A stretch of 53,384 nucleotides of DNA, taken from assembly GCA_900696455.1 (NCBI GenBank), contig CAADGB010000048.1, forward strand, positions 1 to 53,384, given 5' to 3'. Shown piece after piece: positions 34,588 to 48,420 of the stretch; within the stretch, counting starts at the first letter, position 1, and the number at the start of each line of letters is the position of its first letter. The DNA is from an uncultured delta proteobacterium. Its GTDB lineage: Bacteria > Myxococcota_A > Polyangia > Haliangiales > Haliangiaceae. The translations under genes were made by a program, and so were the position numbers. The notes beneath the pieces were generated by a model, which did not search any database, was not told where the DNA came from, and saw nothing but the letters and a program-made list of their open reading frames with translations.

Positions 34588-35400
34588 ATGAAGCTCGCCG
34601 CGCCCCCCACCCTCCTGCTCGCCCTCGTCGTCGTCGCGCTGGCCCCCGCCCCCGCCGACGCCAGCCCCCCCACCGGCCGCGAGGTGCTGGAGCGGCAGGA
34701 GGAGGCGCGCCGGCTGCCGTCGTTCCAGGCCCGCGCCATGCTGTCGACGACGCGCGCGGGCGAGGCGGCCAAGGCGGCCAAGAAGTTCCGCTGGTGGCGC
34801 AAGCTCTCCGCCGACAAGGTCCACTTCGTCACCCTGACCCGCTTCGACGAGCCGGCGACGATCCGCGGCGAGGGCGTGCTGATCCGCGAGGGCAAGAGCG
34901 CGAACGACGTGCTGCTCTACCTCCCCCACTTCAAGAAGGTGCGCCGGGTCGAGGGCCAGTCGCAGAGCTCGAGCTTCTTCGGCTCGGTCTTCAGCTACTC
35001 CGACGTCGCCATGACCCACGCCGATGACAGCACCGCCAAGGTGCTGCGCGAGGAGGCCTGCCCCGGCGAGACGCTGACGTGCTGGGTCGTCGAGATCAGC
35101 CCGGCCACGCCGGCGGTCCGCGACCGCACCGGCTACAGCCGCAGCGTGCAGTGGATCCGCCAGGACAACTGGGTGACGGTGGCCGGCGACTTCTACGACA
35201 AGAAGGGCAAGCTGTGGAAGCGGCTGACGGCGCGCGAGGTGAAGGAGGTCGATCCCAAGGCGAAGAAGTGGCTGCCCCACCACGTGACGCTCGAGGACGT
35301 GCAGAAGCGGCGGACGACCGTGCTGCGCCTGGCCGACGTGAAGGTCAACGTCAGCCTCGACGACTCGCTGTTCACGGAGCAGAGCCTGGCCAGCGAGTGA
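34588..35400 (+). CDS. LolA-like outer-membrane lipoprotein-sorting protein
   Basis: A 270-aa periplasmic protein with signal peptide (cleavage near PADA-SPP). It matches the LolA-like family (TP0789-type) with segments such as FQARAMLSTTRA, LTRFDEPATIRGEGVLIREG and LLYLPHFKKVRRVEGQSQSSSFFGS, the last being typical of the RND-associated subgroup. CPGETLTCW may form a disulfide. These proteins carry lipids or lipoproteins and often stand beside MMPL/RND transporters. None is present here, but a porin-like gene follows with a GTGA overlap. Confidence 0.85.
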   Translation: MKLAAPPTLLLALVVVALAPAPADASPPTGREVLERQEEARRLPSFQARAMLSTTRAGEAAKAAKKFRWWRKLSADKVHFVTLTRFDEPATIRGEGVLIREGKSANDVLLYLPHFKKVRRVEGQSQSSSFFGSVFSYSDVAMTHADDSTAKVLREEACPGETLTCWVVEISPATPAVRDRTGYSRSVQWIRQDNWVTVAGDFYDKKGKLWKRLTAREVKEVDPKAKKWLPHHVTLEDVQKRRTTVLRLADVKVNVSLDDSLFTEQSLASE

Positions 35401-37325
35401 GCGTGCGCGCCCGGCTCCTCCTCCGCGCCGCGGCGATCCTGATCGTGCTCGGCGCCCTGGCCGCGCCCGCGCTGGCGCGCAAGCGCGTGGTGCTGCTCGC
35501 GATCGAGGGCAAGGGCGGCGACGACCTCACGGCCGCGGTCGAGCAGGTGCTCGCCCGCGAGGTCACGGTCCTCTCCGACGGGCTGTTCCGGCGGCGCCAG
35601 CAGCGCCTGCGCCTCATCCAGCTCACCGACCAGGCCTACGCCCGCATCTCCGCCGACCTCCTCGCCGACGCCGTGGTCACCGGCACCTGGCGCAGCACCG
35701 GCCGGCGCTGGCGGCTGACGCTCGTGGTGCGCCACGGCCGCACCGGCGCCGTGGTCGGCCGGGTGACCGAGGTCTTCCGCGGCCGCGAGCTCGAACGCGA
35801 GGACAAGGAGGCGCTGGCCGCGCGGCTGCTGCCGCTCCTGCGCGACCTCGACGCCCCGCCCGGCGCGGCCGACGGCGGTGGCGACGGCGACGCCCCGGTC
35901 GACGGCGCCGGGGGCGGGGACGACGGCGGGGACGACGGCGGCGCCGACGCCACGGCCGAGGACGGCCCCGGCGGGGCCGACGACGGCGGCGCCGCGTCGG
36001 ACGACGTGGCCACCGAGGACGCCGCCACCGGCGACGCCACCCCCGGCGACGACGCCCCCGGCGACGACGCCGCGGCCGACGACGCCTGGGCCGACGACGA
36101 CGGCGCCGGCGGGATCGGGCCGATCAGCGGCCGGACCTTCGCCTACGTGCGGGCGCCGGTCGACGGCGGCGACTTCCAGCAGGTGTCGGCGTCGGTGCTG
36201 CTCAGCGCGCGGCCGCGCTTCAACGACGCCGCCTCGGCCGCGTTCGAGCTCGCGTTCGAGGACGCCGCGGTCGCGCTCTCGGGGGCCGAGGGCCTCCGCG
36301 TCTACGCGCGCGAGGCGTACGTCTCGCTCCGCCGCCGCGGCTGGCTCGTGCGCGCCGGGCACCAGATCCAGCCGTGGGGCGCCAGCGACGTCGTCAACCC
36401 GACCGACTTCCTCACCGCCCGCGACTACCGCTTCTTCGCCGCCGACCCCGAGCACACGCGCCGGGGCGCGCTCGCCCTCCTCCTCTCCCCCGCCACGCCC
36501 CGGCTCGAGGTCAAGCTCGTCGTCACGCCTCGCTTCCCCGCCTCGCGGGTGCTCATCCCGACCTCGGCGCTCCCCGCCGGCGTCTCGCTCGGCGAGCCCG
36601 AGCACATCCCCGCCGCCGTCGACAACACCGAGGTCGCGGCCAAGGTCAAGGTGGCGGGCGGCGGCTGGGACGTGGCCGTGGTCGGGTTCCGCGGCTGGAA
36701 CCACACCCCCGAGCTCGAGCTGGTGTCGGCGACCGACACCGAGCTCGTGCTGCGCCACACCCACCGCCGGATCGTCGCCGCCGGCCTCGACGCCTCGGCC
36801 AGCGTCGGCAAGCTGGTCTTCCGCCTCGAGGCGTCGTACGTCGTCCCCACCGACAACGCCGACGGCGCCGACGCCACCCGCCTGCCGCCGGTCGCGGCCG
36901 CGGTGCTCGGGGTCGAGCGGCCCCTCGGCCAGCGCCTGCGGGCCCAGGCCCAGCTCCTGGCCCGGGCCTATCCGCAGTGGACGGATCCGGCGACCGTGCG
37001 GGGCCCCGACGACGCGACCACCGCCGCGCGGCGCGGGCTCGCCGCCAGCAACGCGCTCCTGCTCGACTACCAGGACGCGCAGCGCCCGGCGGCGACCCTG
37101 CGCCTCGCCTACCAGAGCGAGGAGGGGCGGCTCGAGGCCGAGATCTTCGGCGCCATGAACCTCGTCGGCCGCGACTTCCTCGTGCGCCCGCTGATCGGCT
37201 GGCGGCCGGTGGAGCCCGTCACCCTACAGGTGGGCGTCGACGTCTACGGCGGCCCCCGCGACCGCCCGCTCGGCGCCCTCGAGGATTTCGGAGGCGCGTT
37301 CGGTCAGGTGACCTACGTGTTCTGA
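35397..37325 (+). CDS. outer-membrane porin-like protein with acidic linker
   Basis: A 642-aa protein from GTG 35397, overlapping the LolA-like stop. A signal peptide ends ALAA-PALA. Residues about 30-155 form an alpha/beta domain (KRVVLLAIEGKGGDDLTAAVEQVL) like those at the N-terminus of myxobacterial envelope proteins. Residues about 158-240 are an Asp/Gly/Ala-rich, nearly repetitive linker. The rest resembles a DUF1302-type beta-barrel (VYAREAYVSLRRRGWLVRAGHQIQPWGASDVVNPTDFL) and ends in Phe, as outer-membrane proteins do. Together with the LolA-like gene it may form a lipid export pair. Residues near VNPTDF support the DUF1302 suggestion. Confidence 0.78.
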   Translation: MSVRARLLLRAAAILIVLGALAAPALARKRVVLLAIEGKGGDDLTAAVEQVLAREVTVLSDGLFRRRQQRLRLIQLTDQAYARISADLLADAVVTGTWRSTGRRWRLTLVVRHGRTGAVVGRVTEVFRGRELEREDKEALAARLLPLLRDLDAPPGAADGGGDGDAPVDGAGGGDDGGDDGGADATAEDGPGGADDGGAASDDVATEDAATGDATPGDDAPGDDAAADDAWADDDGAGGIGPISGRTFAYVRAPVDGGDFQQVSASVLLSARPRFNDAASAAFELAFEDAAVALSGAEGLRVYAREAYVSLRRRGWLVRAGHQIQPWGASDVVNPTDFLTARDYRFFAADPEHTRRGALALLLSPATPRLEVKLVVTPRFPASRVLIPTSALPAGVSLGEPEHIPAAVDNTEVAAKVKVAGGGWDVAVVGFRGWNHTPELELVSATDTELVLRHTHRRIVAAGLDASASVGKLVFRLEASYVVPTDNADGADATRLPPVAAAVLGVERPLGQRLRAQAQLLARAYPQWTDPATVRGPDDATTAARRGLAASNALLLDYQDAQRPAATLRLAYQSEEGRLEAEIFGAMNLVGRDFLVRPLIGWRPVEPVTLQVGVDVYGGPRDRPLGALEDFGGAFGQVTYVF

Positions 37326-37371
37326 CCGCGCGGGCACGCCGGTTGCAACCTCGGCGCGTCGATGTCCGACG

Positions 37372-37466
37372 CCACGACCTATCCGACCGATCCGCGGTCG
37401 TGGGATCCTGTCGACCTGGCCCCGGTGACCGGGGCAGGCTCGTCCGGGTGGCTAGTCGACCAGCCA
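37372..37466. promoter_or_regulatory. three inverted repeats in the leader of the carbapenem-like operon
   Basis: In the 155-base gap before the CarB-like gene I see three inverted repeats. CCACGACC-N16-GGTCGTGG lies at 37372-37403. GCCCCGGT-G-ACCGGGGC lies at 37419-37435, perfect with one central base. TGGCT-A-GTCGAC-C-AGCCA lies at 37449-37466, a near-perfect 18-bp palindrome. The Shine-Dalgarno-like GAAGGGG (37469-37475) and GTG 37481 follow immediately. They could be operators, a terminator for the porin gene, or an attenuating leader. No clear -35/-10 pair was identified. Confidence 0.5.
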
Positions 37467-37480
37467 GTGAAGGGGTGATC

Positions 37481-38290
37481 GTGACGCGTTCGTATCAGAC
37501 GCTGATCTACGAGGAGCACGGCCGCATCGCGCGAGTCCAGTTCAACCGCGAGAAGGACACCAACGCCTTCTCCCGGGCGATGACGCTCGAGCTGCTCGAC
37601 GTGTGCGCGCACCTGCACGCCGACGCGGCCTCCGCCGAGCCCCGCCTGGACGCGCTCGTCCTCACCGGCGGCACCGGACGCTCGTTCAGCGTCGGCGGCG
37701 ACTTCAACGACGTGAGCCGGCTGTCCGAGGAGCCGGAGATCCGGGCATACCTCGGCGAGATCATCGACCTCTACGTCGCCCTCCTCGACGTCGAGATCCC
37801 GGTGATCGCCGCGATCGACCGCTTCGCGATCGGCCAGGGCCTGCAGGTCGCGCTCATGGCCGACTGGCGGATCGGTGCCAGCTCGTGCCGGCTGCAGATG
37901 CCGGAGCTCAAGAACGGCGTCGCCTGCCCGCTCGGCTCGATCATCCTCGAGCTCCTGCTCGGCCGCGCCCGCATGCAGGAGCTGGTCTTCGACTGCGAGG
38001 TCATCGATCCGCCGACCGCCCGCGCCTACGGCCTGCTCAGCCAGGTGTGCGCGCCCGAGGAGCTCCAGGACGCGGCGATGGCGATGGCCCGTCGCCTCGC
38101 CGCCTACCCGCGCACCTCGTACGTCACCACCAAGCGCATCCAGAACCAGCGCTTCGTCCAGGCGTTCGAGACCGTGCGCGAGCCCAGCTCGCAGGCCCAC
38201 GTCGCGGCCTTCCTGCGCCGCACCGGCCAGGCCCACTTCGAGCGCATCCTCGGCACCCCGGAGCGGAGCGGCGGACATGGCCGCGAGTGA
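37481..38290 (+). CDS. CarB-like carboxymethylproline synthase (crotonase family)
   Basis: A 269-aa crotonase-fold enzyme. By eye it aligns over its whole length with CarB of Pectobacterium and the ThnE group rather than ordinary enoyl-CoA hydratases. Matches include NAFSRAM (CarB NPFSRTL), RSFSVGGDFNDV (RSFSAGGDFNEV), FAIGQGLQVALM and LQMPELKNGV (FVMPELKHGI; Glu142 fits the CarB catalytic Glu131). The C-terminus also matches (SYVTTKR, QAHFERILG). CarB condenses (alkyl)malonyl-CoA with glutamate-5-semialdehyde to carboxymethylproline. The first gene of an eight-gene tight operon; GAAGGGG supports GTG 37481, with GTG 37475 possible. Confidence 0.85.
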   Translation: MTRSYQTLIYEEHGRIARVQFNREKDTNAFSRAMTLELLDVCAHLHADAASAEPRLDALVLTGGTGRSFSVGGDFNDVSRLSEEPEIRAYLGEIIDLYVALLDVEIPVIAAIDRFAIGQGLQVALMADWRIGASSCRLQMPELKNGVACPLGSIILELLLGRARMQELVFDCEVIDPPTARAYGLLSQVCAPEELQDAAMAMARRLAAYPRTSYVTTKRIQNQRFVQAFETVREPSSQAHVAAFLRRTGQAHFERILGTPERSGGHGRE

Positions 38291-38546
38291 GGCCGGCGCC
38301 GCCGGCGCCGCCGGCGACGTCGACAAGGTCATCGTCGCCATCCGCAAGCTCGGGGTCGGCGGCGACGCGGTCATGACCGCGACCACCCACCTGCGCGACG
38401 ATCTCGGCCTCGACTCGGCGAGCCTCATCGAGCTCACGGTGGTGGTCCACACCCTCTACGGCGTCGACCTCGGCCGCCGCGCCGCCGAGCGCGGCGCCGT
38501 GCCCACGACGGTGGGCGAGCTCGCCGCGCTGCTGGTCGCGCCATGA
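38277..38546 (+). CDS. acyl carrier protein
   Basis: An 89-aa carrier protein with the phosphopantetheine motif DDLGLDSASLIEL. Ser47 is the expected attachment site. It has an Ala/Gly-rich N-terminal stretch and the usual helix II region (LIELTVVVHTLYGVDL). It overlaps the CarB-like stop by 14 bases and the next start by ATGA. A carrier protein is not part of the minimal carABC set, so it probably carries an extra acyl group here. No phosphopantetheinyl transferase is in the window. Confidence 0.88.
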   Translation: MAASEAGAAGAAGDVDKVIVAIRKLGVGGDAVMTATTHLRDDLGLDSASLIELTVVVHTLYGVDLGRRAAERGAVPTTVGELAALLVAP

Positions 38547-39736
38547 AGGCCTACCTGGTCGCCCACCGCCAGCCGCTGCCGCCCTTCCGCAAGCCGGTCG
38601 CCGAGCTCCGGTTCAAGGAGGGCTCGCTGCGCCAGCGCCTCGAGACCCAGCTCCGCGCCGCCGGGCTCGAGGTGGTCCCGGTCGACGCCGTCCCCGCCGA
38701 CGTCGCGCCGCGCTCGGTCGTCGTCTCCGACGACGTCGTGCTGTCGCGCAACCTCCTCCGCCGCTTCCTCGCCGCGATCCCCGATCGCCGCCGGAGCTAC
38801 CAGGCCGAGATCGAGAGCGGGCGGTTCACGCTCCTGGCCTCGCGCAGCGCCCCGGCCCGCTGGCTGCCGCTGCCGCTCCGCTACCGCGGCGACGACGACC
38901 AGGCGCCGGAGCCGCTGCAGCTCCAGCCCCGCCCGGTGTTCGAGTTCGAGGAGGGCCTGCCGGCGCGCATGCACCTCCTCACCGACCTCTGCGTCTACTT
39001 CTTCGACATCTGGGCGCTGCCGATCGCGCACTGGTTCGATCTGCAGACGGCGTCGAGCCTGTACTGCCGGGAGCTGGTGACCCGCCTGATCAGCCCGTTC
39101 CACGGCCGGGTCCCGGCGCCCATCCTGCGCTGGTTCACCGGCTCGCCGTGGGTGATGAGCAAGTGCAACTCGATCGGCAAGCGGACCCGGATCCACCGCA
39201 CCGCGATCCTCGAGGGCTGCGTGGTCGGCGACGGCGTCGAGATCGGGCCGTTCGCGTACCTGCGCTCGTCGGTGATCGGCGACCACGCCGTGATCCGCGA
39301 GAAGTCGTCGATCAAGATGTCGTACGTGGGGCCGCGCGCGTTCGTGATGGGCTCCGACATCGTCAACAGCTACGTCGGCGCCGAGACCGCGATCTTCACC
39401 CCCATGCTCTACAACGCCGTCTTCGGCGAGCGCGGGTTCCTGAGCGGCGGCAGCGGCTTCGCCGACTTCATCCTCGGCGCGGCGTCGATCCCGGCGACGA
39501 TCGAGGGCAAGCAGGTCCCGTCGGGGCTGCCGTTCCTGGCCAGCGGCGTCGGCGACGACTGCTTCATCGGCGCCAACATGATCTTCGCCCCCGGCCGCAC
39601 GATCCCCGACGGCACCCACCTGCTCGACCACGGGCTGATCAAGCAGGTGCCGACCCGGCCCGACGGCACCTACGTGGTGTCGGGCAGCGAGCTGGTCCAG
39701 ATCCCCGAGAGCTTCCTCAAGCGGAGGAGCGCGTGA
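38543..39736 (+). CDS. left-handed beta-helix (hexapeptide repeat) protein
   Basis: A 397-aa protein. The N-terminal ~190 residues are an unrecognised alpha/beta domain. From about 200, hexapeptide-like repeats of the left-handed beta-helix fold are clear (IGKRTRIHRTAILEGCVVGD, then VIGDHAVIREKSSIKMSYVG, SDIVNSYVGAETAI and a late turn, GDDCFIGANMIFAPG). Such folds occur in acyl- and nucleotidyltransferases. Acyl transfer from the adjacent carrier protein is a fair guess. I do not see the three-His pattern of gamma-carbonic anhydrases. ATGA overlap upstream and GTGA overlap downstream place it in the operon. Confidence 0.72.
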   Translation: MKAYLVAHRQPLPPFRKPVAELRFKEGSLRQRLETQLRAAGLEVVPVDAVPADVAPRSVVVSDDVVLSRNLLRRFLAAIPDRRRSYQAEIESGRFTLLASRSAPARWLPLPLRYRGDDDQAPEPLQLQPRPVFEFEEGLPARMHLLTDLCVYFFDIWALPIAHWFDLQTASSLYCRELVTRLISPFHGRVPAPILRWFTGSPWVMSKCNSIGKRTRIHRTAILEGCVVGDGVEIGPFAYLRSSVIGDHAVIREKSSIKMSYVGPRAFVMGSDIVNSYVGAETAIFTPMLYNAVFGERGFLSGGSGFADFILGAASIPATIEGKQVPSGLPFLASGVGDDCFIGANMIFAPGRTIPDGTHLLDHGLIKQVPTRPDGTYVVSGSELVQIPESFLKRRSA

Positions 39737-40869
39737 GCGCCGCCCTCCCCGCCACGATGCAGGCCTGGGTGGTGCGCGAGGATCGCCACGGCGATCCCGT
39801 CCACGCCATGAAGCTCGAGACCGTGCCGGTGCCGCGGCCCGGCATCGGCGAGGTCATCCTGCGGGTCCGGGCGGCGGGCGTGAACTACAACCACGTCTGG
39901 GCCTGCCGCGGCGTGCCGGTGCCGATCAGCCAGCTCCACCCCGACGACCCGCTCCACATCGGCGGCAGCGACGCCGCCGGCGTGGTGGCCGCGGTCGGCG
40001 AGGGCGTCCGGTACTGGAAGGTGGGGGACGAGGTCATCACCCACCCCAACCAGAGCTGCGGTCAGTGCGCCGCCTGCAACGGCCTCGAGCCGCTGTCGTG
40101 CATGCACCAGAAGGCGTGGGGCTTCGAGACGAGCTGGGGCAGCTTCGCCCAGTACGCGCGGGTCCAGGCCCAGCAGCTCCTGCGCAAGCCCGCCGGCCTG
40201 GGCTGGGCCGAGGCCTCGGCCTACGGCCTCAAGCTCTTCACCGCCTACCGCATGCTGTTCGTGAGCGCCGACCTCAAGCCGCGCGATCGCGTGCTGGTGT
40301 GGGGCGCCTCGGGGGGCCTCGGCTCGTACGCCCTGCAGCTCTGCCGCGCGGTGAGCGCGGTGCCGATCTGCGTCGTCAGCTCGCCGCAGAAGGAGGCCTA
40401 CCTCCGCCAGCTCGGCGCCGAGCTGTTCATCGATCGCAACCAGTTCCCGTACCTCGACGCCCCGGCCGACTCGCCGGTGCCGAGCGCCGGCATGCGCCAG
40501 TTCCGGCGCCGGCTGCGCGAGCTCACCGGCGGCGAGGACCCGGAGATCGTCTTCGAGCACGTCGGCGCCGCGACCTTCCCCACCAGCGTGTTCGTGGCCC
40601 GCCGCCTGGGCAAGATCGTCATCTGCGGCGCCACCAGCGGCTACCAGCTCACGTTCGACGCCCGCTACCTGTGGATGCACCAGAAGCAGATCGTCGGCTC
40701 CCACGGCTGCAACTCCCACGACGCCTCGCGCGCCAACGACCTGGTCGAGCGCGGCGTGATCCGACCGACCCTGACGCGCACCTACGCCTTCCACCAGGCC
40801 GCGCTCGCCCACCAGCACCTGCTCGAGGATCGCACCTGCCAGGGCAGCTTCGCGATCATGGTCGACTGA
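39733..40869 (+). CDS. crotonyl-CoA carboxylase/reductase-like enzyme
   Basis: A 378-aa medium-chain reductase that resembles Ccr of Streptomyces throughout: WGFETSWGS, WGASGGLGSYALQL, PICVVSSPQK, LTGGEDPEIVFEH, RYLWMHQKQIVGSH. The residues known to hold CO2 in Ccr appear kept: Asn in VNYNHVW (51/53), Phe131-Glu132 and His324. That argues for NADPH-dependent reductive carboxylation of an enoyl thioester to an alkylmalonyl thioester. It is shorter than Ccr (about 447) and has a Cys-rich loop (CGQCAACNGLEPLSC) like zinc alcohol dehydrogenases. GTG 39733 overlaps the previous stop. Confidence 0.85.
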   Translation: MSAALPATMQAWVVREDRHGDPVHAMKLETVPVPRPGIGEVILRVRAAGVNYNHVWACRGVPVPISQLHPDDPLHIGGSDAAGVVAAVGEGVRYWKVGDEVITHPNQSCGQCAACNGLEPLSCMHQKAWGFETSWGSFAQYARVQAQQLLRKPAGLGWAEASAYGLKLFTAYRMLFVSADLKPRDRVLVWGASGGLGSYALQLCRAVSAVPICVVSSPQKEAYLRQLGAELFIDRNQFPYLDAPADSPVPSAGMRQFRRRLRELTGGEDPEIVFEHVGAATFPTSVFVARRLGKIVICGATSGYQLTFDARYLWMHQKQIVGSHGCNSHDASRANDLVERGVIRPTLTRTYAFHQAALAHQHLLEDRTCQGSFAIMVD

Positions 40870-40870
40870 G

Positions 40871-42370
40871 ATGCTGTGGGACGCTCTCGCCCGCGCGCCG
40901 TTCGCGACCTCGACCCGGGACGCCATCGTCTCCGATCAGGCCACGCTCTCGTACGCCGAGCTGTTCGCCCGCGCCGAGGCCCTGGCCGCCACCCTGGCCG
41001 AGGTCGGCGCCGGCCCCGGCCACGTCGTCCTCGCCTACCTCGACAACACGCCGGCGTTCCTGGTCGCGCTCCTGGCCACCGCCCGCCTCGGCGCCACCTT
41101 CGCGCCGCTCGACATCGGCGTCACCGACGCCGAGGCCGCCGGCCTGCTCGCGCTGTCGCGCAGCGACCTCATCGTCTGCGACCCGACCGCCGGGGCGCGC
41201 TGCGAGCGCTGGTCGAAGAACCTGGTCGCGGTCACGCCGCGCGGCGAGGTGGTCGCGGCCCGCCGCGACGGGCTCGGCGCGCCGTCGGTCGATCCCGGCA
41301 TCGGCATCATGCAGTTCTCGTCGGGCACGACCGCCGCCTCCAAGGGCATCCTGCTCGGCCACGAGGCCCTCTACTACCGCTCGCGCTACCTGTCGCGGGC
41401 CCTCGGCCTCGACGAGCGCGACCGGACGCTGTGCACGCTGCCGCTGTCCCACACCCACGGCGCCGAATGCCTGGCCCTGCCCACGCTGATGACCGGCGGC
41501 ACGCTCTTCCTCAAGTCGCCGCGCTTCGCCTTCCCCCTCTACATCCTCGAGGAGCTCGAGCGCCTCGCGATCACGTTCTTCAGCTCGATCCCGCAGTTCT
41601 ACGACGTCGCGGTCAAGCTCAGCCCGACCCGGACGCCCGACCTGTCGGCGCTCCGCCTGCCGTTCTGCGGCAGCGCCGCCCTGGCCCGCGCCACCGCCGA
41701 GGCGTTCTTCGCCCGGTTCGGCGTCCACATCCGCCAGGGCTACGGCCTGGCCGAGCTGTCGGTGATCTGCGTGAACATGCACGACGACGGCCAGGTCGTC
41801 TACGACTCGGTGGGCCGGGTCCTCGACGGGATCGAGTGGCGGCTGGCCGACGGCGACCGCGCGGGCGAGGGCGAGCTCCTGGTGCGCTCGAAGGCGATGT
41901 TCACCGGCTACATCAACGGGCCGGAGGTCACCGCCGAGCGGCTGCGCGACGGCTGGCTCCACACCGGCGACGTCGTCGCGGTCGACGGCGACGGCCGCTT
42001 CCGGATCGTCGGCCGCAAGGAAGACTTCATCAAGGTCAACGGCTTCAAGGTCTACGCCGCCGAGGTCGAGGCCGCGATCATCGCCGTCGACTGGGTCGCG
42101 GAGTGCGCCGTCGTCGGCGAGCGCGACGCGCTGGGCAGCGAGGCCCTGGTCGCCCACGTCGTGGTCCGCGACGACCGCGCCCCGCCCGGCGCGCTCCACG
42201 ACCAGCTCGTTCGCCACCTGCGCCCGGTGCTGTCCGAGCACAAGCTGCCCCGGCGCACCGTCACCTGGCACGAGCTGCCCAAGAGCCCGCTCGGCAAGAT
42301 CCTCAAGTCGCAGATCAAGGCCGCCCCGTCGCCGTCGCCGTCCCCGTCCCCGTCCCCGTCCAGCAAGTGA
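40871..42370 (+). CDS. acyl-CoA/acyl-ACP ligase (AMP-forming)
   Basis: A 499-aa ANL-superfamily enzyme. P-loop FSSGTTAASKG is near 149-159. QGYGLAE, GWLHTGDVV, IVGRKEDFIKVNG and a C-terminal catalytic Lys in KSPLGKILKSQIK are all in place. It activates a carboxylic acid as acyl-AMP and passes it to CoA or to the carrier protein encoded two genes upstream. The tail is a Pro-Ser repeat from a CCGTC(C/G) microsatellite (42325-42362). It begins one base after the reductase. The acid substrate cannot be read from sequence. Confidence 0.88.
   Translation: MLWDALARAPFATSTRDAIVSDQATLSYAELFARAEALAATLAEVGAGPGHVVLAYLDNTPAFLVALLATARLGATFAPLDIGVTDAEAAGLLALSRSDLIVCDPTAGARCERWSKNLVAVTPRGEVVAARRDGLGAPSVDPGIGIMQFSSGTTAASKGILLGHEALYYRSRYLSRALGLDERDRTLCTLPLSHTHGAECLALPTLMTGGTLFLKSPRFAFPLYILEELERLAITFFSSIPQFYDVAVKLSPTRTPDLSALRLPFCGSAALARATAEAFFARFGVHIRQGYGLAELSVICVNMHDDGQVVYDSVGRVLDGIEWRLADGDRAGEGELLVRSKAMFTGYINGPEVTAERLRDGWLHTGDVVAVDGDGRFRIVGRKEDFIKVNGFKVYAAEVEAAIIAVDWVAECAVVGERDALGSEALVAHVVVRDDRAPPGALHDQLVRHLRPVLSEHKLPRRTVTWHELPKSPLGKILKSQIKAAPSPSPSPSPSPSSK
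42325..42362. repeat. CCGTCC/CCGTCG hexamer microsatellite at the ligase C-terminus
   Basis: About six hexamers encode Pro-Ser repeats at the very end of the acyl ligase. The copy number may vary without changing the enzyme core. Confidence 0.7.
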
Positions 42371-42378
42371 GCCCCGCC

Positions 42379-43167
42379 ATGACCAGCACCTCCCCCACCC
42401 TCACCGCCTCGGGCATGGGCGCCCGCATCACCGATCGCCGCATCACCGACTTCTCGGCCACCGAGATCCGGGAGCTCGTCGCCCGCTACCGGTGGCTCGC
42501 GTTCACCGGCAACCCGGTCAGCGTCGACGAGATGATCGACTACCTGCCCCGGTTCGGCCCGCTCACCGAGAACGACCGCCGCCAGGGCCCGGTGCTGAAG
42601 ATCGACGCCTCCAAGAAGGACGAGGGCGAGGTCCTGCTCGGCCAGGGCTTCCTGCCGCTCCACCGCGACGGCGTGCTCATGGGCTACGACATCGAGCTGG
42701 TCGCGATCTGCTGCGCCGAGCACCAGGACGTCCGCGGCGGCCGCACGTTCATCACCGACATCGAGAACGGATGCAAGGAGGTGCCGGCGGAGATCCTCGA
42801 GCTCCTGCACGAGCGCGGCATCGAGGGCCGACCGGTCGACCGCTACTACACCAAGCCGTCCGACACCTGGCACTGGATCCCGGGCTTCACCGAGCTCGAC
42901 GGCCAGCGCTGGCTCTCGCTCGGCTTCCCCTACCGCCCCGACGAGAAGCCGAGCTGGCTCCTGCGCATCCCCGGCGTCGACGACGCGCGCACCCAGGAGA
43001 TCTTCGAGCTCATGCGCGCCGTCCTGATGAGCGAGACCTACTGCTACTACCACGACTGGCAGGAGGGCGACGTCCTGCTCCTCGACAACCGGCGGACCCT
43101 GCACGGCCGCGAGGCCTTCACCGGCGGCCCGCGCCGGCTGGCCAACCTGCAGGTCCTGGCCCGCTGA
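42379..43167 (+). CDS. CarC-like Fe(II)/2-oxoglutarate-dependent oxygenase
   Basis: A 262-aa enzyme that aligns by eye with carbapenem synthase CarC: ASGMGARI (CarC ASGFGAYI), GQGFLPLHRDGVL (GRGQLPFHADGGL), YYHDWQEGDVLLLDNRRTLHGREAF ([26 protein letters not shown] region). Iron ligands are His95, Asp97 and His242. Arg252/253 should bind 2-oxoglutarate. Tyr157 (in DRYYTK) matches Tyr165 of CarC, the hydrogen donor in C5 epimerisation. CarC epimerises C5 and introduces the C2-C3 double bond. One C-terminal Arg of CarC (RRLYR) is Asn here. ATG 42379 lies nine bases after the ligase. Confidence 0.85.
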   Translation: MTSTSPTLTASGMGARITDRRITDFSATEIRELVARYRWLAFTGNPVSVDEMIDYLPRFGPLTENDRRQGPVLKIDASKKDEGEVLLGQGFLPLHRDGVLMGYDIELVAICCAEHQDVRGGRTFITDIENGCKEVPAEILELLHERGIEGRPVDRYYTKPSDTWHWIPGFTELDGQRWLSLGFPYRPDEKPSWLLRIPGVDDARTQEIFELMRAVLMSETYCYYHDWQEGDVLLLDNRRTLHGREAFTGGPRRLANLQVLAR

Positions 43168-43169
43168 CG

Positions 43170-43856
43170 ATGGCGCTGCTCGAGGCGCGGGGCCTGAAGA
43201 AGACCTACCCGCAAGGCAAGCAGTCGGTCGAGGTCCTGCGCGGCCTCGACGTCACCGTCGACCAGGGCGAGTTCGTGGCCGTGGTCGGGCCCTCGGGCTC
43301 GGGCAAGACCACGTTCATGCAGCTCGTCGGCGGCCTCGACCGCCCGAGCGCCGGCAGCGTGCGCCTGGCCGGCGAGCCGCTCGAGACCTTCAGCGACGCC
43401 CGGCTGTCGGCGTTCCGCCGCCGCAAGCTCGGCTTCGTCTTCCAGTTCTTCCACCTCCTGCCCACCTTGAGCGCCGAGGAGAACGTGTGCCTGCCCCGGC
43501 TGCTCGACGGCGAGGCCTACGCCCGGGTGGCGCCGGCCGCCGCCGCGCTGCTGGAGCGGGTCGGGCTCGGCGCCCGCCGCCACCACCGCCCCGATCAGCT
43601 CTCGGGCGGCGAGATGCAGCGGGTGGCGATCGCCCGCGCCCTGGTCGCCGATCCGGTGCTGATCCTGGCCGACGTACCCACCGGCAACCTCGACAGCAAG
43701 ACCGGCCAGCTCGTGCTCCAGCTCTTCCGCGACACGGTGAAGGAGCGCGGCCAGACCGTGATCATGGTGACCCATGACCCCCGCGCCGCCGCCCTCGCCG
43801 ACCGGGTGATCGGCCTGCGCGACGGCCTCATCGAGCGCGACGAGCCGACCTCGTGA
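43170..43856 (+). CDS. MacB/LolD-type ABC transporter ATP-binding subunit
   Basis: A 228-aa ATPase with Walker A GPSGSGKT (40-47), Q-loop FQFFHLLP, signature LSGGEMQR (144-151) and switch His202 (VTHDPRA). Walker B reads LILADVPTGNLDS: Val169 occupies the place of the catalytic Glu found in nearly all active members (ADEPTGNLDS). It partners the FtsX-type permease with GTGA overlap and starts two bases after the CarC-like gene. The likely role is export of, or resistance to, the product, with impaired or asymmetric hydrolysis if the Val is real. Confidence 0.9.
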   Translation: MALLEARGLKKTYPQGKQSVEVLRGLDVTVDQGEFVAVVGPSGSGKTTFMQLVGGLDRPSAGSVRLAGEPLETFSDARLSAFRRRKLGFVFQFFHLLPTLSAEENVCLPRLLDGEAYARVAPAAAALLERVGLGARRHHRPDQLSGGEMQRVAIARALVADPVLILADVPTGNLDSKTGQLVLQLFRDTVKERGQTVIMVTHDPRAAALADRVIGLRDGLIERDEPTS

Positions 43857-46474
43857 TCCGCACCCTCCTCCGCTTCGCCGGCCTCCGCCACATCCGCCGC
43901 AAGCCGTTCCGCGCCGCCCTCACCGCGCTCGGCATCGCGCTCGGCGTGGCGCTGTTCGTCGCGATCAGCGCGATCAACGAGTCGACGCTCGCGTTCTTCC
44001 GCACCAACGTCAGCTCGATGACCGGCAAGGCGAGCTTCACGGTGCTCGGCTCTCCGGTCGGCTTCCCCGAGGAGCTGGTCGAGGTGGTGCGCGCGGTCCC
44101 CGGCGTGGAGGCGGCGGTGCCCATGGTCGAGAGCCGCGCCCGCTTCGGTGACGGCGAGACCCTGGTGGTCTTCGGCGTCGACCTCCTGCAGGAGGCGGCG
44201 GTGCGCGAGTACGGCGGCGGGCCCGGCGACGATCAGCACGCCGAGGACGTGGTCGAGGATCCGCTCGAGTTCCTCAACCAGCCCGACTCGATCATCGTCA
44301 CCCGGAGCTTCGCCGCCGCCCACGGCCTGCGGCTCGAGTCGCCGTTCGACCTGGTGACGGCGCTCGGCCGCCAGCGCTTCGTCGTGCGCGGGCTGCTCGA
44401 GCCGAAGGGCACGGCCCGCGCCTACGGCGGCGGCGTCGCGATCATGGACATCGACGGCGCCCGCGAGATGTTCGGCAAGGTCGGCAAGGTCGATCGCATC
44501 GACGTCGTGCCCGCCGCCGGGGTCGATCGCGACGAGCTGGCCGGGCGCATCACCCAGGCGGTGGCCCGCGCCGGCAGCGGCCTGCGGGTCGAGCGCCGGG
44601 AGGACCAGGCGAGGTCGATGGCCAAGCTGGTCGAGGGCTACCAGGGCATCCTGGCCTTCTGCAGCCTGCTCGCCCTGCTCATCGGCATGTTCCTGGTCGC
44701 CAACACGATCGCGGTCGCGGTCGCCGACCGCCGCCGCGAGATCGCCGTCCTGCGCGCGCTGGGCGCCTCGCGCGCCGGCATCCTGGTCATGTTCGTGATC
44801 GACGCCGCGATCATGGGCGTGGTCGGCGGGATCATCGGCGCCGTGCTCGGCCGCGAGCTGGCCGAGCTCCTGGTCGAGCGGGTGTCGGCGTCGATGAGCC
44901 GGCAGTACGTGACCCCGATCGACGTCTCCGAGCTGCACTTCTCCTCGGCCCAGGCCGCCGCCGGCGTGATCGCCGGGGTGATCGCCGCCACCCTGGCCGC
45001 GCTGTGGCCGGCGTGGCGGGCGACGCGGGTGAGCGGCGGCGAGGCGTTCGGCGCCGGCCCCGCGGGCGCGCCGCCGCTGGTGCGCAGCCGGCGGGCCACG
45101 ATCCGCCGGCTGGCCGGCCTGGGCATGCTCGCCGCCTTCGGGCTCCTGGCGGCCAGCGGCGCGAGCCACCCCGCCCTCGACGCGGTCACGCCGCTGCTCG
45201 GCGTGGCGGGCGCGGTCCTGGCCGCGCCGTGGCTGGTGGCGCTCGGCCTGCACGGGCTGGGCTGGCTGGTGCGCGCGCGCGGCCCGCTGGGCCGGCTCGC
45301 CGTCCTCCGCCTCGCCTGCCAGAACCTGCTCCGCGATCCGGCCCGCACCGGCGGCAACGTCCTCAGCCTCGTGATCGGGCTGATGCTGGTCATCACGATG
45401 GGCGTGATCCAGTTCAGCTTCAAGACCAGCATCGGCGACTGGAACCAGCGGGTCCTGCGCTCCGACCTCTGGGTGAGCTCGATCGGTCGCGTCCTGGCCG
45501 TCGACGTCCAGCCGCTGTCGGAGGAGCTGGGGCCCGAGATCGATCGCGTGCCCGGCGTCGACCTCGCCGACGGCAAGGGCGCGCGCGGCTTCCGCATCGT
45601 GCACCACCAGCACGAGGGCCGGCAGATCATGCTGAAGGCGATGGAGCCGCAGCACCCGAAGGTCGGCAACGCGTGGTTCGACGTCGTCGACCGCCCGGTC
45701 GATCAGGCGGTCGCCGAGCTGTTCGCGCCGGCCACCACCGGGGTCCTGGTGTCGCAGAACTTCACCCGCCACTTCGGCGAGCGCCCCGGCGACACCCTCG
45801 AGCTCGCCACCCCGAGCGGCCCCGAGCGCTTCCGCGTGCTCGGCACCGTCGTCGACTACGGCAGCCCCGAGGGCACGCTCTACCTGTCGCGCGCGGTCTA
45901 CCGGCGGCTGTGGAAGGACCCGCTGGTCAGCGCGTTCTCGGTCGAGGTCGCGCCCGGCCACACCCCGCTCGAGGTCCAGCAGGCCATCGAGCGCGAGCTC
46001 GGGCCGCGCGGGCTCATCGCCACCCGCAACAGCCAGCTCCGCGAGCAGTTCGACGTCATGATGGACGAGAGCTTCGGCTACACCCGCGCCATCGAGCTCG
46101 CCGCGCTCGGCATCGGCCTGCTCGCGCTGCTGAGCACGCTCCTGCTCAGCCTGCTGGCCCGCCAGCGCGAGCTGGGCATGCTGCGCGCGATCGGCATGTC
46201 GCGCGGCCAGCTCGCCCGCATGATCCTCGGCGAGGCCGCGCTGCTCGGCGTGTTCGGCGGCCTGGCCGCGGTCGCGCTCGGCGTCTACATCGCCCAGCTC
46301 TGGGTGGTCTCGACCCTGGCGTCGTCGCTGGGCTGGTTCATCCAGGTCCACGTGCCGCTGAGCTCGGTCGCGATCACGGTGGTCACCGGCCTCGCCGTCG
46401 GCCTCGTGGTCGGCCTCCTGTGCGCCCGCCGGGTCGCCACCCTCGAGATCCGCGCCGCCCTCGAGGGCTCGTAG
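43853..46474 (+). CDS. FtsX/MacB-type ABC transporter permease
   Basis: An 873-aa membrane protein of the long two-unit type. An N-terminal helix (RAALTALGIALGVALFVAISA) and periplasmic domain are followed by FtsX core helices at about 260-385, two more helices (~420-480), and a second helix plus periplasmic domain. It closes with a second FtsX core at about 745-860 (AALGIGLLALLSTLLLSLLARQRELGMLRAIGMS). This arrangement is seen in LolE-like and antimicrobial-peptide exporters. GTG 43853 overlaps the ATPase stop. The last gene of the operon that begins with the CarB-like gene. Confidence 0.9.
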   Translation: MIRTLLRFAGLRHIRRKPFRAALTALGIALGVALFVAISAINESTLAFFRTNVSSMTGKASFTVLGSPVGFPEELVEVVRAVPGVEAAVPMVESRARFGDGETLVVFGVDLLQEAAVREYGGGPGDDQHAEDVVEDPLEFLNQPDSIIVTRSFAAAHGLRLESPFDLVTALGRQRFVVRGLLEPKGTARAYGGGVAIMDIDGAREMFGKVGKVDRIDVVPAAGVDRDELAGRITQAVARAGSGLRVERREDQARSMAKLVEGYQGILAFCSLLALLIGMFLVANTIAVAVADRRREIAVLRALGASRAGILVMFVIDAAIMGVVGGIIGAVLGRELAELLVERVSASMSRQYVTPIDVSELHFSSAQAAAGVIAGVIAATLAALWPAWRATRVSGGEAFGAGPAGAPPLVRSRRATIRRLAGLGMLAAFGLLAASGASHPALDAVTPLLGVAGAVLAAPWLVALGLHGLGWLVRARGPLGRLAVLRLACQNLLRDPARTGGNVLSLVIGLMLVITMGVIQFSFKTSIGDWNQRVLRSDLWVSSIGRVLAVDVQPLSEELGPEIDRVPGVDLADGKGARGFRIVHHQHEGRQIMLKAMEPQHPKVGNAWFDVVDRPVDQAVAELFAPATTGVLVSQNFTRHFGERPGDTLELATPSGPERFRVLGTVVDYGSPEGTLYLSRAVYRRLWKDPLVSAFSVEVAPGHTPLEVQQAIERELGPRGLIATRNSQLREQFDVMMDESFGYTRAIELAALGIGLLALLSTLLLSLLARQRELGMLRAIGMSRGQLARMILGEAALLGVFGGLAAVALGVYIAQLWVVSTLASSLGWFIQVHVPLSSVAITVVTGLAVGLVVGLLCARRVATLEIRAALEGS

Positions 46475-46528
46475 CTCCGCGCTCGCCCCACGCTGGTCCC
46501 GCCCGCGCGTCGGCGACGGCGCGCGGCC

Positions 46529-47038
46529 TCACGTCCTGGCTCGGGACCGGTGCGTGCGCAGCCAGTCGTTCAGGAACGCGGCCGACTCGCGCCACCCGGC
46601 GCGCAGGTTCTTCTCGAAGCTCGACTCCAGCAGGCCGCCGCTGCCCCGCACCCGGGCCTCGATCGTGAGCGCCAGCGTCCGCCGCGCCGCCGCGCCCGCC
46701 GGCTCGACCCGCATCACCAGGTCGGCGGACATCCGCTCGGCGAACGTGTCGGGGACGGTCCGGGTCCGCCACACCCGCGTCGCGCGGTCGAAGCGCCCCT
46801 CCTCGACGTAGCCGAAGCTCGCGCCGAACACCCGGGCCACCGCCGCCGCCGCGTCGAGGCGCGGCACCGCCCGCGTCGTCTGCCGGATCTCGGCCTCGCC
46901 GTCGACGCGCTCGAGGATCTCGTAGCTGCGGAAGCCGAGCGCGACCACGATCGCGCGCTCGAACTCCGGATCGAAGAACGCCCGCCAGTGTTCGTCGACG
47001 GTGCCGTCGATGTCCTGCACCAGGGTGAGCTCGCGCAT
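46529..47038 (-). CDS. DUF2505/START-like small protein
   Basis: A 169-aa soluble protein resembling the DUF2505 branch of the START/SRPBCC fold: an N-terminal LTLVQDIDGTVDEHWRAFFDPEFE, strands IRQTTRAVP and RTRTVPDTFAERMSADLVMRVEP, and a C-terminal amphipathic helix (RESAAFLNDWLRTH). This fold binds hydrophobic ligands. It faces the exporter gene tail to tail and starts 20 bases from the CarA-like gene in the opposite direction, so the two may share a promoter region. A link to the cluster is possible but unproven. Confidence 0.65.
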   Translation of the reverse strand: MRELTLVQDIDGTVDEHWRAFFDPEFERAIVVALGFRSYEILERVDGEAEIRQTTRAVPRLDAAAAVARVFGASFGYVEEGRFDRATRVWRTRTVPDTFAERMSADLVMRVEPAGAAARRTLALTIEARVRGSGGLLESSFEKNLRAGWRESAAFLNDWLRTHRSRART

Positions 47039-47058
47039 CGTGGTAGTAGTGTAGCCGC

Positions 47059-48420
47059 ATGCCCTTCCTGTTCCTGCGGCCGCGGCGCCCCGGCGCCGCC
47101 GTCACGCCGAACGAGCCTCGCCTGGCCGAGCGGCTGTGCCCGTACCGGGGCCCGCTCGGCCGCCACCACCTCGCCGGCGGCGCGCTCTGGCTGTCGCCCC
47201 TGGCCGGCGCCACGGCGCGCGGCTTCGAGCTCCCGGCCGGCACCCGGCGACCGCCGCACGCGGCCTGGCTCGCCGTCGACGCCGACGACGGCGGCCTCCG
47301 CTTCCAGACCGATCCGCTGGGCACGTTCCCGCTGTGGGTGGCCGAGACCGACGAGCTGATCGCGGTCACCGCCGAGGTCAAGAGCCTGACCGCGCTCCCC
47401 GGGCTCGACGTCGGCTTCCAGGCCGAGCGCTGGCCCGCCGCCCGCAAGCGGCCGCCCGACTACTCGCCGTACGCCCGGGTCGCGCGGGTCCGGCCCGGCG
47501 CCGTCCTCCACCTCGACGCCGACGGCGGCCGGCGGATCGAGGGCGGCTCGCCCCTCGTCTACCGACCCGACGCCATGCTCACCGCCGCCGCCGAGCAGGC
47601 CGAGGCCCTCGACGCGGCGCTGGACGCCGCCGCGCGGACCATGGCCGCCACCGGGCCGGGCTGGGGCGCGCTGCTGTCGGGCGGCATCGACTCCTCGACC
47701 GCGACCGCGCTGCTCGCCCGCCACGATCCCACGCTCCGCACCTACACCCTGGGCACCGAGCACGGCGACGAGTACGCCGACGCCGAGGCGCTGGCCAGCC
47801 ACCTCGGCACCCGCCACCGCCGCGTCTTCGCCACCGCCGCGCAGGCGCGCGCCCACTTCGACCGCGCCGTCTTCTGCAACGAGACCGTCGACGGCCTGAC
47901 CGCCGAGACCCTGGCCCAGCTCGGCCTCCTGGTCGCGGCCGCGGCCCAGGACGTCCGCAAGGTCGTCACCGGCTACGGCGCCGACCTCCTCTTCGGCTCG
48001 ATGCTGCGCCACGACCTGTACATGCAGGTCACCGGCGTCGACGACCTGCAGTCGCTGATCGAGCGCACCGCCTGGAGCGGCGAGTTCGCGCCGTTCTACG
48101 CCTGGTCGCTCGGCGTCGAGGTCCACCACCTGTTCTGGGATCCGGCGGTGATGAACACCGCGTTCCGCATCCCGCCCGCGGCCAGCTTCGACGGCGGCCA
48201 CGAGAAGCTCGTCCTCCGCCACCTCGCCGTCGACCGCGGCCACCTCCTGGCCGAGCACGCCTTCCGCCGGAAGACCGCGCTCACCGACGGCACCCAGTTC
48301 AACCGCGTCCTGTCCACCGCCCTGGGCCTCGCCGATCGCCACGCCTACCCCGGCAAGGACGCCGCCGCCGTCGCCGCCCTGCGCCGCATCCTCGCCGGCT
48401 CCGGACCGGAGTCCTCGTGA
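47059..48420 (+). CDS. CarA-like beta-lactam (carbapenam) synthetase
   Basis: A 453-aa asparagine-synthetase-like protein aligning by eye with CarA. Matches include LSGGIDSSTATALLARH (207-213 is the ATP-binding loop), TYTLGTEHGDE (CarA TYSIGTELSNE), NETVDGLTAE (NEIFDGLSAE), VTGYGADLLFG (LTGYGSDLLFG), RTAWSGEFA (RTRWTGEFA) and RRKTAL. Tyr306, Glu342 and Lys405 are spaced 36 and 63 residues apart; Tyr345, Glu380 and Lys443 of CarA are spaced 35 and 63. The N-terminus (MPFLFL) lacks the Cys2 of true glutaminases, as expected for beta-lactam synthetases. It would adenylate carboxymethylproline and close the beta-lactam. It lies downstream of the main operon, past one opposed gene. Confidence 0.85.
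   Translation: MPFLFLRPRRPGAAVTPNEPRLAERLCPYRGPLGRHHLAGGALWLSPLAGATARGFELPAGTRRPPHAAWLAVDADDGGLRFQTDPLGTFPLWVAETDELIAVTAEVKSLTALPGLDVGFQAERWPAARKRPPDYSPYARVARVRPGAVLHLDADGGRRIEGGSPLVYRPDAMLTAAAEQAEALDAALDAAARTMAATGPGWGALLSGGIDSSTATALLARHDPTLRTYTLGTEHGDEYADAEALASHLGTRHRRVFATAAQARAHFDRAVFCNETVDGLTAETLAQLGLLVAAAAQDVRKVVTGYGADLLFGSMLRHDLYMQVTGVDDLQSLIERTAWSGEFAPFYAWSLGVEVHHLFWDPAVMNTAFRIPPAASFDGGHEKLVLRHLAVDRGHLLAEHAFRRKTALTDGTQFNRVLSTALGLADRHAYPGKDAAAVAALRRILAGSGPESS

Follow-up and report, generated by a model that had tools for sequence, protein, structure and literature searches.

The stretch of DNA analysed here in its full length (the window; 53,384 nucleotides, contig CAADGB010000048.1) carries a block of twelve genes, from 34588 to 48420, that we read as a probable locus for making and exporting a carbapenem-type beta-lactam, the C-6 chain of which would be built in at the first step (probability roughly 0.57). 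At its core lie homologues of the carbapenem enzymes CarB (37481–38290), CarC (42379–43167) and CarA (47059–48420), all on the plus strand and all where an earlier reading of the letters alone (the sequence-only reading) had located them. The surrounding genes, above all a crotonyl-CoA carboxylase/reductase (CCR) taken together with the pocket of the CarB homologue, would be the best clue to the product.

The three core proteins were compared by phmmer with 177,635 distinct PDB sequences, and each found its own Car enzyme first, with a clear gap to the rest of its superfamily, which bears out the specific match that the sequence-only reading had claimed. For the crotonase, the best matches were CarB (2a7k, 3.5e-55) and the CarB homologue 5o34 (7e-46), which by eye is letter for letter the S. 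cattleya protein of locus L046, and the next crotonase followed at 5.2e-24. In the CarB tree, the crotonase falls into an 18-row clade with CarB and ThnE (support 100/99), and all nine general crotonases lie outside. This clade holds eight car rows (seven of the eleven enterobacterial loci described below, and Pantoea), ThnE, att, Acinetobacter, Bradyrhizobium, S. decoyicus and five myxobacterial copies, the latter from the window and four related genomes. Two long-branch crotonases of the host's own were removed from this tree; in the tree made before their removal, the general crotonases (eight of eight) were outside as well. The PDB scores and the tree rule out an ordinary enoyl-CoA hydratase, the grouping that the sequence-only reading had named as one that would refute it. 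Furthermore, residues corresponding to CarB G62, Q111, E131 and H229 are kept in all five myxobacterial copies, G62 being the oxyanion residue. On Bradyrhizobium sp. 62B p1 (L047, 11003–12756), two CarB-like crotonases are adjacent in opposite directions, one of them with Phe at the position of CarB Trp79.

The oxygenase matched CarC best (1nx4/4oj8, 1.3e-34), and the gap to the next PDB match (1.4e-7) disfavours a generic TauD enzyme. Its residues H95, D97 and H242 align with the CarC iron ligands H101, D103 and H251, and Y157 aligns with Tyr165; the equivalents of all four are kept in the five myxobacterial copies. The roles of the iron ligands and of Tyr165 as hydrogen donor are those given in the excerpted part of PMC6097109. 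An Arg lies 9–11 residues past the distal His in the oxygenases, in a register that varies, and may or may not correspond to the 2-oxoglutarate Arg263 of CarC. In the CarC tree, which carries long-branch warnings, 17 rows stand apart from PvcB and a protein of genome G212 at 100/98. Apart from the oxygenase, the assembly (7.98 Mb, rated 95% complete) has no TauD-family match.

The synthetase matched CarA (1q15, 1.2e-38) ahead of the beta-lactam synthetase BLS (1jgt, 1.3e-20) and the asparagine synthetase AsnB (2.4e-9). Its Tyr306, Glu342 and Lys405 align with the catalytic residues of CarA, presumably the Tyr345-Glu380 dyad and Lys443. All three are kept in the five myxobacterial copies (one a fragment), the eight car rows, the S. 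cattleya enzyme and BLS; the Tyr position is Glu in both AsnB rows. The same position is Leu in R. fascians, Met in A. indicus and Val in S. decoyicus, so that none of these three rows, whose genes are linked to a ligase gene, keeps the Tyr. The conserved motifs on which the sequence-only reading had relied are thus present in all three enzymes. An AlphaFold model of the synthetase (pLDDT, predicted local distance difference test, 79) retrieved carbapenam synthetase as the best Foldseek match (2.8e-25) and superposed on it with Z 32.1 and a root mean square deviation of 3.1 over 428 residues, against Z 27.7 for BLS and Z 25.1 for AsnB, a comparison tilted toward CarA by the seven CarA rows in the input alignment of the model.

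The twelve genes of the block, with the family matches on which their assignment rests, are as follows.

34588–35400, plus strand: LolA-like outer-membrane lipoprotein-sorting protein, 270 aa (Pfam PF17131, E 2.1e-46); left edge of the conserved block.
35397–37325, plus strand: predicted outer-membrane barrel protein, 642 aa ("barrel" judged by eye).
37481–38290, plus strand: CarB/ThnE-type crotonase of the carboxymethylproline synthase family, 269 aa, GTG start (phmmer against PDB, tree, pocket residues).
38277–38546, plus strand: acyl carrier protein (ACP), 89 aa, with a DSAS phosphopantetheine site (PF00550, E 2.3e-5, 25 bits against a cut-off of 20.8).
38543–39736, plus strand: left-handed beta-helix (hexapeptide-repeat) protein, 397 aa (PF00132, E 4.8e-11).
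39733–40869, plus strand: CCR family enzyme (NCBIfam equivalog TIGR01751, 437 bits against a cut-off of 378.55).
40871–42370, plus strand: acyl-adenylate/CoA ligase, 499 aa (PF00501, 3.5e-60; PF13193, 2.5e-14).
42379–43167, plus strand: CarC-type Fe(II)/2-oxoglutarate oxygenase, 262 aa (phmmer against PDB, residue alignment).
43170–43856, plus strand: LolD-like ABC ATPase (TIGR02211, 1.4e-70, 237 bits, under the equivalog cut-off of 308).
43853–46474, plus strand: FtsX/MacB-type permease, 873 aa, with a duplicated FtsX domain (PF02687, 5e-33, in two stretches; PF12704, 1.7e-27).
46529–47038, minus strand: DUF2505 protein, between the exporter and CarA homologue genes and divergent from the latter (PF10698, 4.9e-14).
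47059–48420, plus strand: CarA-type beta-lactam synthetase homologue, 453 aa (phmmer against PDB, residues, fold); right edge of the block.

The Pfam and NCBIfam searches thus recover the neighbours of the trio that the sequence-only reading had named: ACP, ligase, carboxylating reductase, beta-helix protein and exporter. Its range of 37481–48420 holds at the right edge and falls short at the left, where the LolA-like and outer-membrane genes (34588–37325) occupy the same place in the relatives.

The CarB pocket and the CCR carry the argument for an alkyl chain. First, Tyr occupies the position of CarB Trp79 in the malonyl pocket of all five myxobacterial copies, where ten of ten comparison rows (the eight car rows, ThnE and att) have Trp, and the M108 position is Gln in all five copies. 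According to the excerpted text of PMC6542682, the CarB variants W79F, W79A, W79Y and W79S accept ethylmalonyl-CoA, and a CCR in tandem with W79 variants yields 6-alkyl products; because W79Y is active with ethylmalonyl-CoA, we read the Tyr as a change of substrate. Second, the cluster CCR has Gly in all five genomes at the position of AntE Val350, after the GSH motif, where AntE has Val and 4gi2 has Phe. This position was mapped as chain position 370 minus an assumed 20-residue tag; 4y0k and 4y1b differ by Val/Ala, which backs the assignment. The AntE V350G variant has a broader range in the portion of PMC6164871 at hand. The host's second CCR, encoded elsewhere in the genome (571 bits), has Phe there and makes a housekeeping role for the cluster CCR unlikely; the Gly in place of Phe would be a substrate trait and not a ground for exclusion from the CCR family. 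Third, the ligase gene directly follows the CCR gene, and its product matches fatty-acyl/feruloyl- and malonyl-CoA synthetases best in the PDB. An acyl-CoA ligase and a CCR form a known alkylmalonyl-CoA pair in RevS/RevT, as an excerpt of PMC5187497 describes. Together, the CCR and the altered CarB pocket indicate alkylmalonyl-CoA rather than malonyl-CoA as the substrate of the CarB homologue. A separate cluster in S. decoyicus, in which a Gly-type CCR is paired with a CarB having Thr at W79, also counts toward this reading.

The trio might instead make a simple unsubstituted carbapenem, the CCR, ligase, ACP and desaturase (the last found in the related loci) being a separate lipid pathway present in the operon by chance. 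The simple carbapenem of Pectobacterium is indeed reported as the product of CarA, CarB and CarC (PMC6542682, in the same excerpts), but three features make this account very unlikely: the changes at W79 and M108 in all five CarB homologues, the difference between the pocket of the cluster CCR and that of the host's other CCR, and the position of the CCR and ligase genes between the crotonase and oxygenase genes in the window and in the relatives TH-Jun18-119 and UBA2376, with which the split contigs of the other two relatives are consistent.

For a carbapenem-type product with an early C-6 chain, the genes suggest a route of seven steps. The ligase, perhaps with the ACP, would activate a fatty acid as a 2-enoyl thioester, which the CCR would reduce and carboxylate to an alkylmalonyl-CoA; the family of the CCR is clear, and the chain length is suggested by its pocket Gly. 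The CarB homologue, likewise of clear family, would decarboxylate this putative substrate and add it to pyrroline-5-carboxylate to give a 6-alkyl-carboxymethylproline. The CarA homologue, with its catalytic residues in place, would then adenylate this intermediate and close the beta-lactam to a 6-alkylcarbapenam, and the CarC homologue, whose iron ligands and Tyr are kept, may invert C-5 and/or desaturate C2-C3. In the four relatives only, the side chain would probably be tailored by a P450 and a fatty-acid-type desaturase. Finally, the LolD/FtsX ABC system, the LolA-like carrier and the outer-membrane protein would export a lipophilic product.

The locus recurs in related genomes. A scan of genome contigs with a three-sequence CarC alignment gave 14 loci, eleven of them enterobacterial car loci and three myxobacterial (UBA2376, Kofleriaceae MAG_26, hereafter MAG26, and TH-Jun18-119). 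When whole genomes were searched, 5 of 30 in the family had the CarB homologue (E 1e-40) and 5 of 317 in the class had the CarC homologue (E 1e-20), and an evenly drawn sample of the phylum gave three hits in 377 genomes at E 1e-10: the window genome, TH-Jun18-119 and one weak 25% match. Around a weak CarC match in G212 (6.6e-14, 25%), 19 kb contained only a weak P450 match and no other gene of the cluster. UBA2376, MAG26 and TH-Jun18-119 belong to the genus of the window, and the fifth genome (G394) to a different genus; the same-genus relatives are labelled Myxococcales and Kofleriaceae, in agreement with the myxobacterial host proposed from the letters.

The whole block stands on a single contig in TH-Jun18-119 and is spread over two to three contigs in the other three relatives, and the gene order agrees across the five genomes wherever the contigs span it. 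The CarA, CarB and CarC homologues share one contig in the window and in TH-Jun18-119 and are all present on separate contigs in the other three, the CarA homologue being a fragment in MAG26. This shared gene set and order in five genomes is far beyond chance. The LolA-like protein (75–82% identical, in the same position), the ACP (66–83%) and the beta-helix protein (69–81%) recur in the four other genomes, and homologues of the 642-aa protein adjoin the LolA-like gene in loci L010 (over a 137-aa stretch only), L039, L040 and L041. In four of the five genomes (in MAG26 by eye), a P450 gene and a fatty-acid-type desaturase gene separate the CarC homologue from the ABC gene. At a contig end of UBA2376, the ABC gene changes in mid-frame to another ABC family (L041 16942–17595 equals L013 13333–13986), likely a chimera, and the UBA2376 exporter was taken from a second contig because the end of the first looks chimeric.

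Several observations weigh against the reading of the block as a locus for a carbapenem-type beta-lactam with an early C-6 chain. The product is a prediction from the genes, and its proposed chain length depends on one residue, the CCR Gly. A changed W79 is no proof of a changed substrate, as one of eight general crotonases also has Tyr in that column, and Bradyrhizobium sp. 62B has its Phe with no match to the CarA or CCR proteins of the window within 24.7 kb. The C-terminal stretch RLYRGQ that follows the distal His in CarC is not kept, so substrate binding may differ from that of CarC. The roles of the ACP, the beta-helix protein and the DUF2505 protein are left unexplained by the proposed route, and no proline dehydrogenase or ferredoxin, as in the Pantoea car locus, is among the twelve genes. 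In S. decoyicus, the synthetase beside the CCR-CarB pair is without the beta-lactam Tyr, so that such a pair alone does not imply a beta-lactam. In the synthetase tree, the deep branching is unsettled: approximately unbiased tests gave p values of 0.44 for CarA with the myxobacterial copies, 0.25 for CarA, BLS and the S. cattleya enzyme with them, and 0.12 for AsnB with them, so that neither CarA nor AsnB is rejected as their sister. Finally, two features of the window copy, a Val in the ABC ATPase and the missing tailoring genes, are set out below.

The state of the CarA tree bears on two alternatives. An AsnB or a lasso cyclase is disfavoured for the synthetase by score, residues and fold, and the tree, which holds no lasso cyclase rows, is compatible with AsnB. 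The sequence-only reading, which would be refuted by a grouping of the synthetase with AsnB, is accordingly supported by the score, catalytic residues and predicted fold, and not by the phylogeny. A broader alternative is that the product of the trio is not a beta-lactam: an amino acid of the carboxymethylproline type would come from the CarB homologue, and some other amide from the synthetase homologue, as may be the case for the Tyr-less homologues. Similar trios beside a ligase in R. fascians, Acinetobacter and S. decoyicus have lost the synthetase Tyr, the tree is compatible with an AsnB-like origin, and the C-terminus of the CarC homologue differs. Against this, each of the five myxobacterial copies matches CarA, BLS and the S. 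cattleya enzyme at the Tyr, Glu and Lys positions, and the synthetase is nearest to CarA in both sequence and fold; we judge this alternative unlikely. The Tyr-less trios imply that a CarA/B/C-like trio need not mean a beta-lactam. A carbapenem-type and likely new product, as the sequence-only reading had concluded, is still probable given the residues kept in the window, and the trio by itself does not define it.

The two features of the window copy concern its exporter and its tailoring genes. The ABC ATPase has Val (GTA, codon 43674–43676) at the Walker B catalytic Glu, which is Glu (ADEPTGNLD) in the four relatives; the exporter may be impaired in this strain, or the Val codon may be a base error. 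The P450 and desaturase genes are absent, the oxygenase and ABC genes being 2 bases apart. Since the window nests in the CarB tree inside the group that bears the P450 and desaturase, loss is the simplest account; the host has four desaturase-family matches elsewhere, the closest 26% identical to the desaturase of a relative. The locus could thus be a once functional one in decay in the window strain, with no finished or exported product, an account that is compatible with the carbapenem reading for the relatives. It would explain why the window is without the two tailoring genes that four of four relatives have and why the Walker B Glu is replaced, but all twelve frames are intact, a single altered base may be an error when the assembly is fragmented, and the ratio of nonsynonymous to synonymous substitution rates (dN/dS), a rough value from NG86 in a very GC-rich genome, is 0.26–0.43 for six genes, each compared with a near relative (the CCR with MAG26, the other five with UBA2376). 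These ratios count toward a working carbapenem-type locus, and we regard decay as quite unlikely.

From the crotonase gene through the permease gene, neighbours either overlap or leave gaps of no more than 8 bases, an arrangement suggestive of a single transcription unit. The ACP gene overlaps its neighbours on both sides, the crotonase gene and the beta-helix gene; its family search was run on 38292–38543, and the full gene follows from the translation and stop. No sigma-70-type promoter turned up in a scan (0.2 expected), and terminator-like sites numbered one against 1.7 expected. The start codons of the DUF2505 and CarA homologue genes are 20 bases apart (47039–47058), a spacing very short for two promoters; the divergent arrangement recurs in L010, L032 and L045 with 18–20 bases and was not seen in the MAG26 contigs. 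The 642-aa outer-membrane protein matched no Pfam or NCBIfam family at E 0.001. For the beta-helix protein, structure prediction was poor (pLDDT 40), and the best PDB sequence match had E 0.0015. A search for beta-lactamase families gave four matches over the cut-off and one below, all on other contigs and with no link to the locus.

Beyond the block itself, we tentatively propose, at somewhat less than even odds, that Kofleriaceae-type myxobacteria make a lipo-carbapenem, with a medium or long C-6 alkyl chain that a CCR-fed CarB homologue sets with the first carbon-carbon bond, desaturase and P450 tailoring and Lol-type export. If so, the laboratory CCR/CarB tandem would have a natural counterpart, and the compounds would form a class of beta-lactams delivered by a membrane-directed route of their own; enzymes that set the C-6 chain at the first step would be ready-made biocatalysts for substituted carbapenams. 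Whether the CarB homologue prefers alkylmalonyl-CoA would be a clear test. Natural carbapenems are known from enterobacteria and Streptomyces, and CarC-type enzymes are now present in a phylum far from enterobacteria. The novelty would lie in the phylum and gene layout in which these carbapenem-type enzymes occur, and in an alkyl branch predicted to enter early. The carbapenems in clinical use, which bear a hydroxyethyl chain at C-6, are produced synthetically (PMC6542682), and C-6 chains in carbapenems are thought to be added late (PMC6542682, PMC6097109), in the excerpts of these papers. No myxobacterial carbapenem-type cluster and no natural CCR/CarB pairing was found in the literature searched, which covered few subscription journals. 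The main text of PMC12482188, on Streptomyces carbapenem clusters, does not use the terms CarA, CarC or "myxo", and that of PMC12766979, on conserved myxobacterial clusters with a pan-genome set that omits Haliangium and Kofleria, does not use "lactam" or "carbapen".

As the sequence-only reading had noted, the layout is unlike both the car and the thn clusters. The car cluster of Pectobacterium, Photorhabdus and Xenorhabdus has all three core enzymes in common with the window (CarA 23–27%, CarB 36–40% and CarC 29–33% identical, catalytic residues kept). In contrast, the window has another gene order with no CarA-B-C block, adds the CCR, ligase, ACP, beta-helix protein and Lol-like exporter, and differs from the car enzymes in W79Y and M108Q of the CarB homologue and in the C-terminus of the CarC homologue. 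The thn cluster of Streptomyces cattleya, which makes thienamycin, shares a CarB homologue (ThnE, 37%) and a synthetase homologue (36% over 235 aa), and its complex, substituted carbapenem resembles the predicted product of the window. However, the C-6 ethyl of thienamycin is made by the radical-SAM enzyme ThnK, and thn has no close CarC homologue (PMC6097109, in the part seen), whereas the chain in the window would enter at step one.

The crotonase, synthetase, oxygenase and ligase genes also stand side by side in three quartets: R. fascians att, Acinetobacter indicus pB18-1 and an S. decoyicus plasmid, the last also with a Gly-type CCR. Their synthetases, unlike that of the window, are without the Tyr of the beta-lactam dyad, the aligned stretches are 25–35% identical, and att retains W79, as does Acinetobacter by eye; the excerpted literature on the att locus names no product. 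On A. indicus pB18-1 (L074, 568–4982), the four genes form an att-like crotonase-synthetase-TauD-ligase cluster with the synthetase Tyr lost, which suggests a spread-out quartet. The S. decoyicus plasmid NZ_CP108348.1 (L048, L081) has a large cluster with CarA-, CarB- and CarC-like genes, a ligase, nonribosomal peptide synthetase genes, a P450 and the Gly-type CCR. RevS and RevT of reveromycin are likewise an acyl-CoA ligase and a CCR (PMC5187497, in excerpt); among the twelve genes of the window there is no polyketide synthase gene, and the extender would feed the crotonase instead. The closest parallel to the proposed route is the engineered tandem of Hamed et al. 2019 (PMC6542682), in whose excerpts a CCR makes alkylmalonyl-CoA, a CarB W79 variant converts it to 6-alkyl-carboxymethylproline and CarA closes some of these products; that tandem is a laboratory construct, whereas the window has the same pair in one natural operon.

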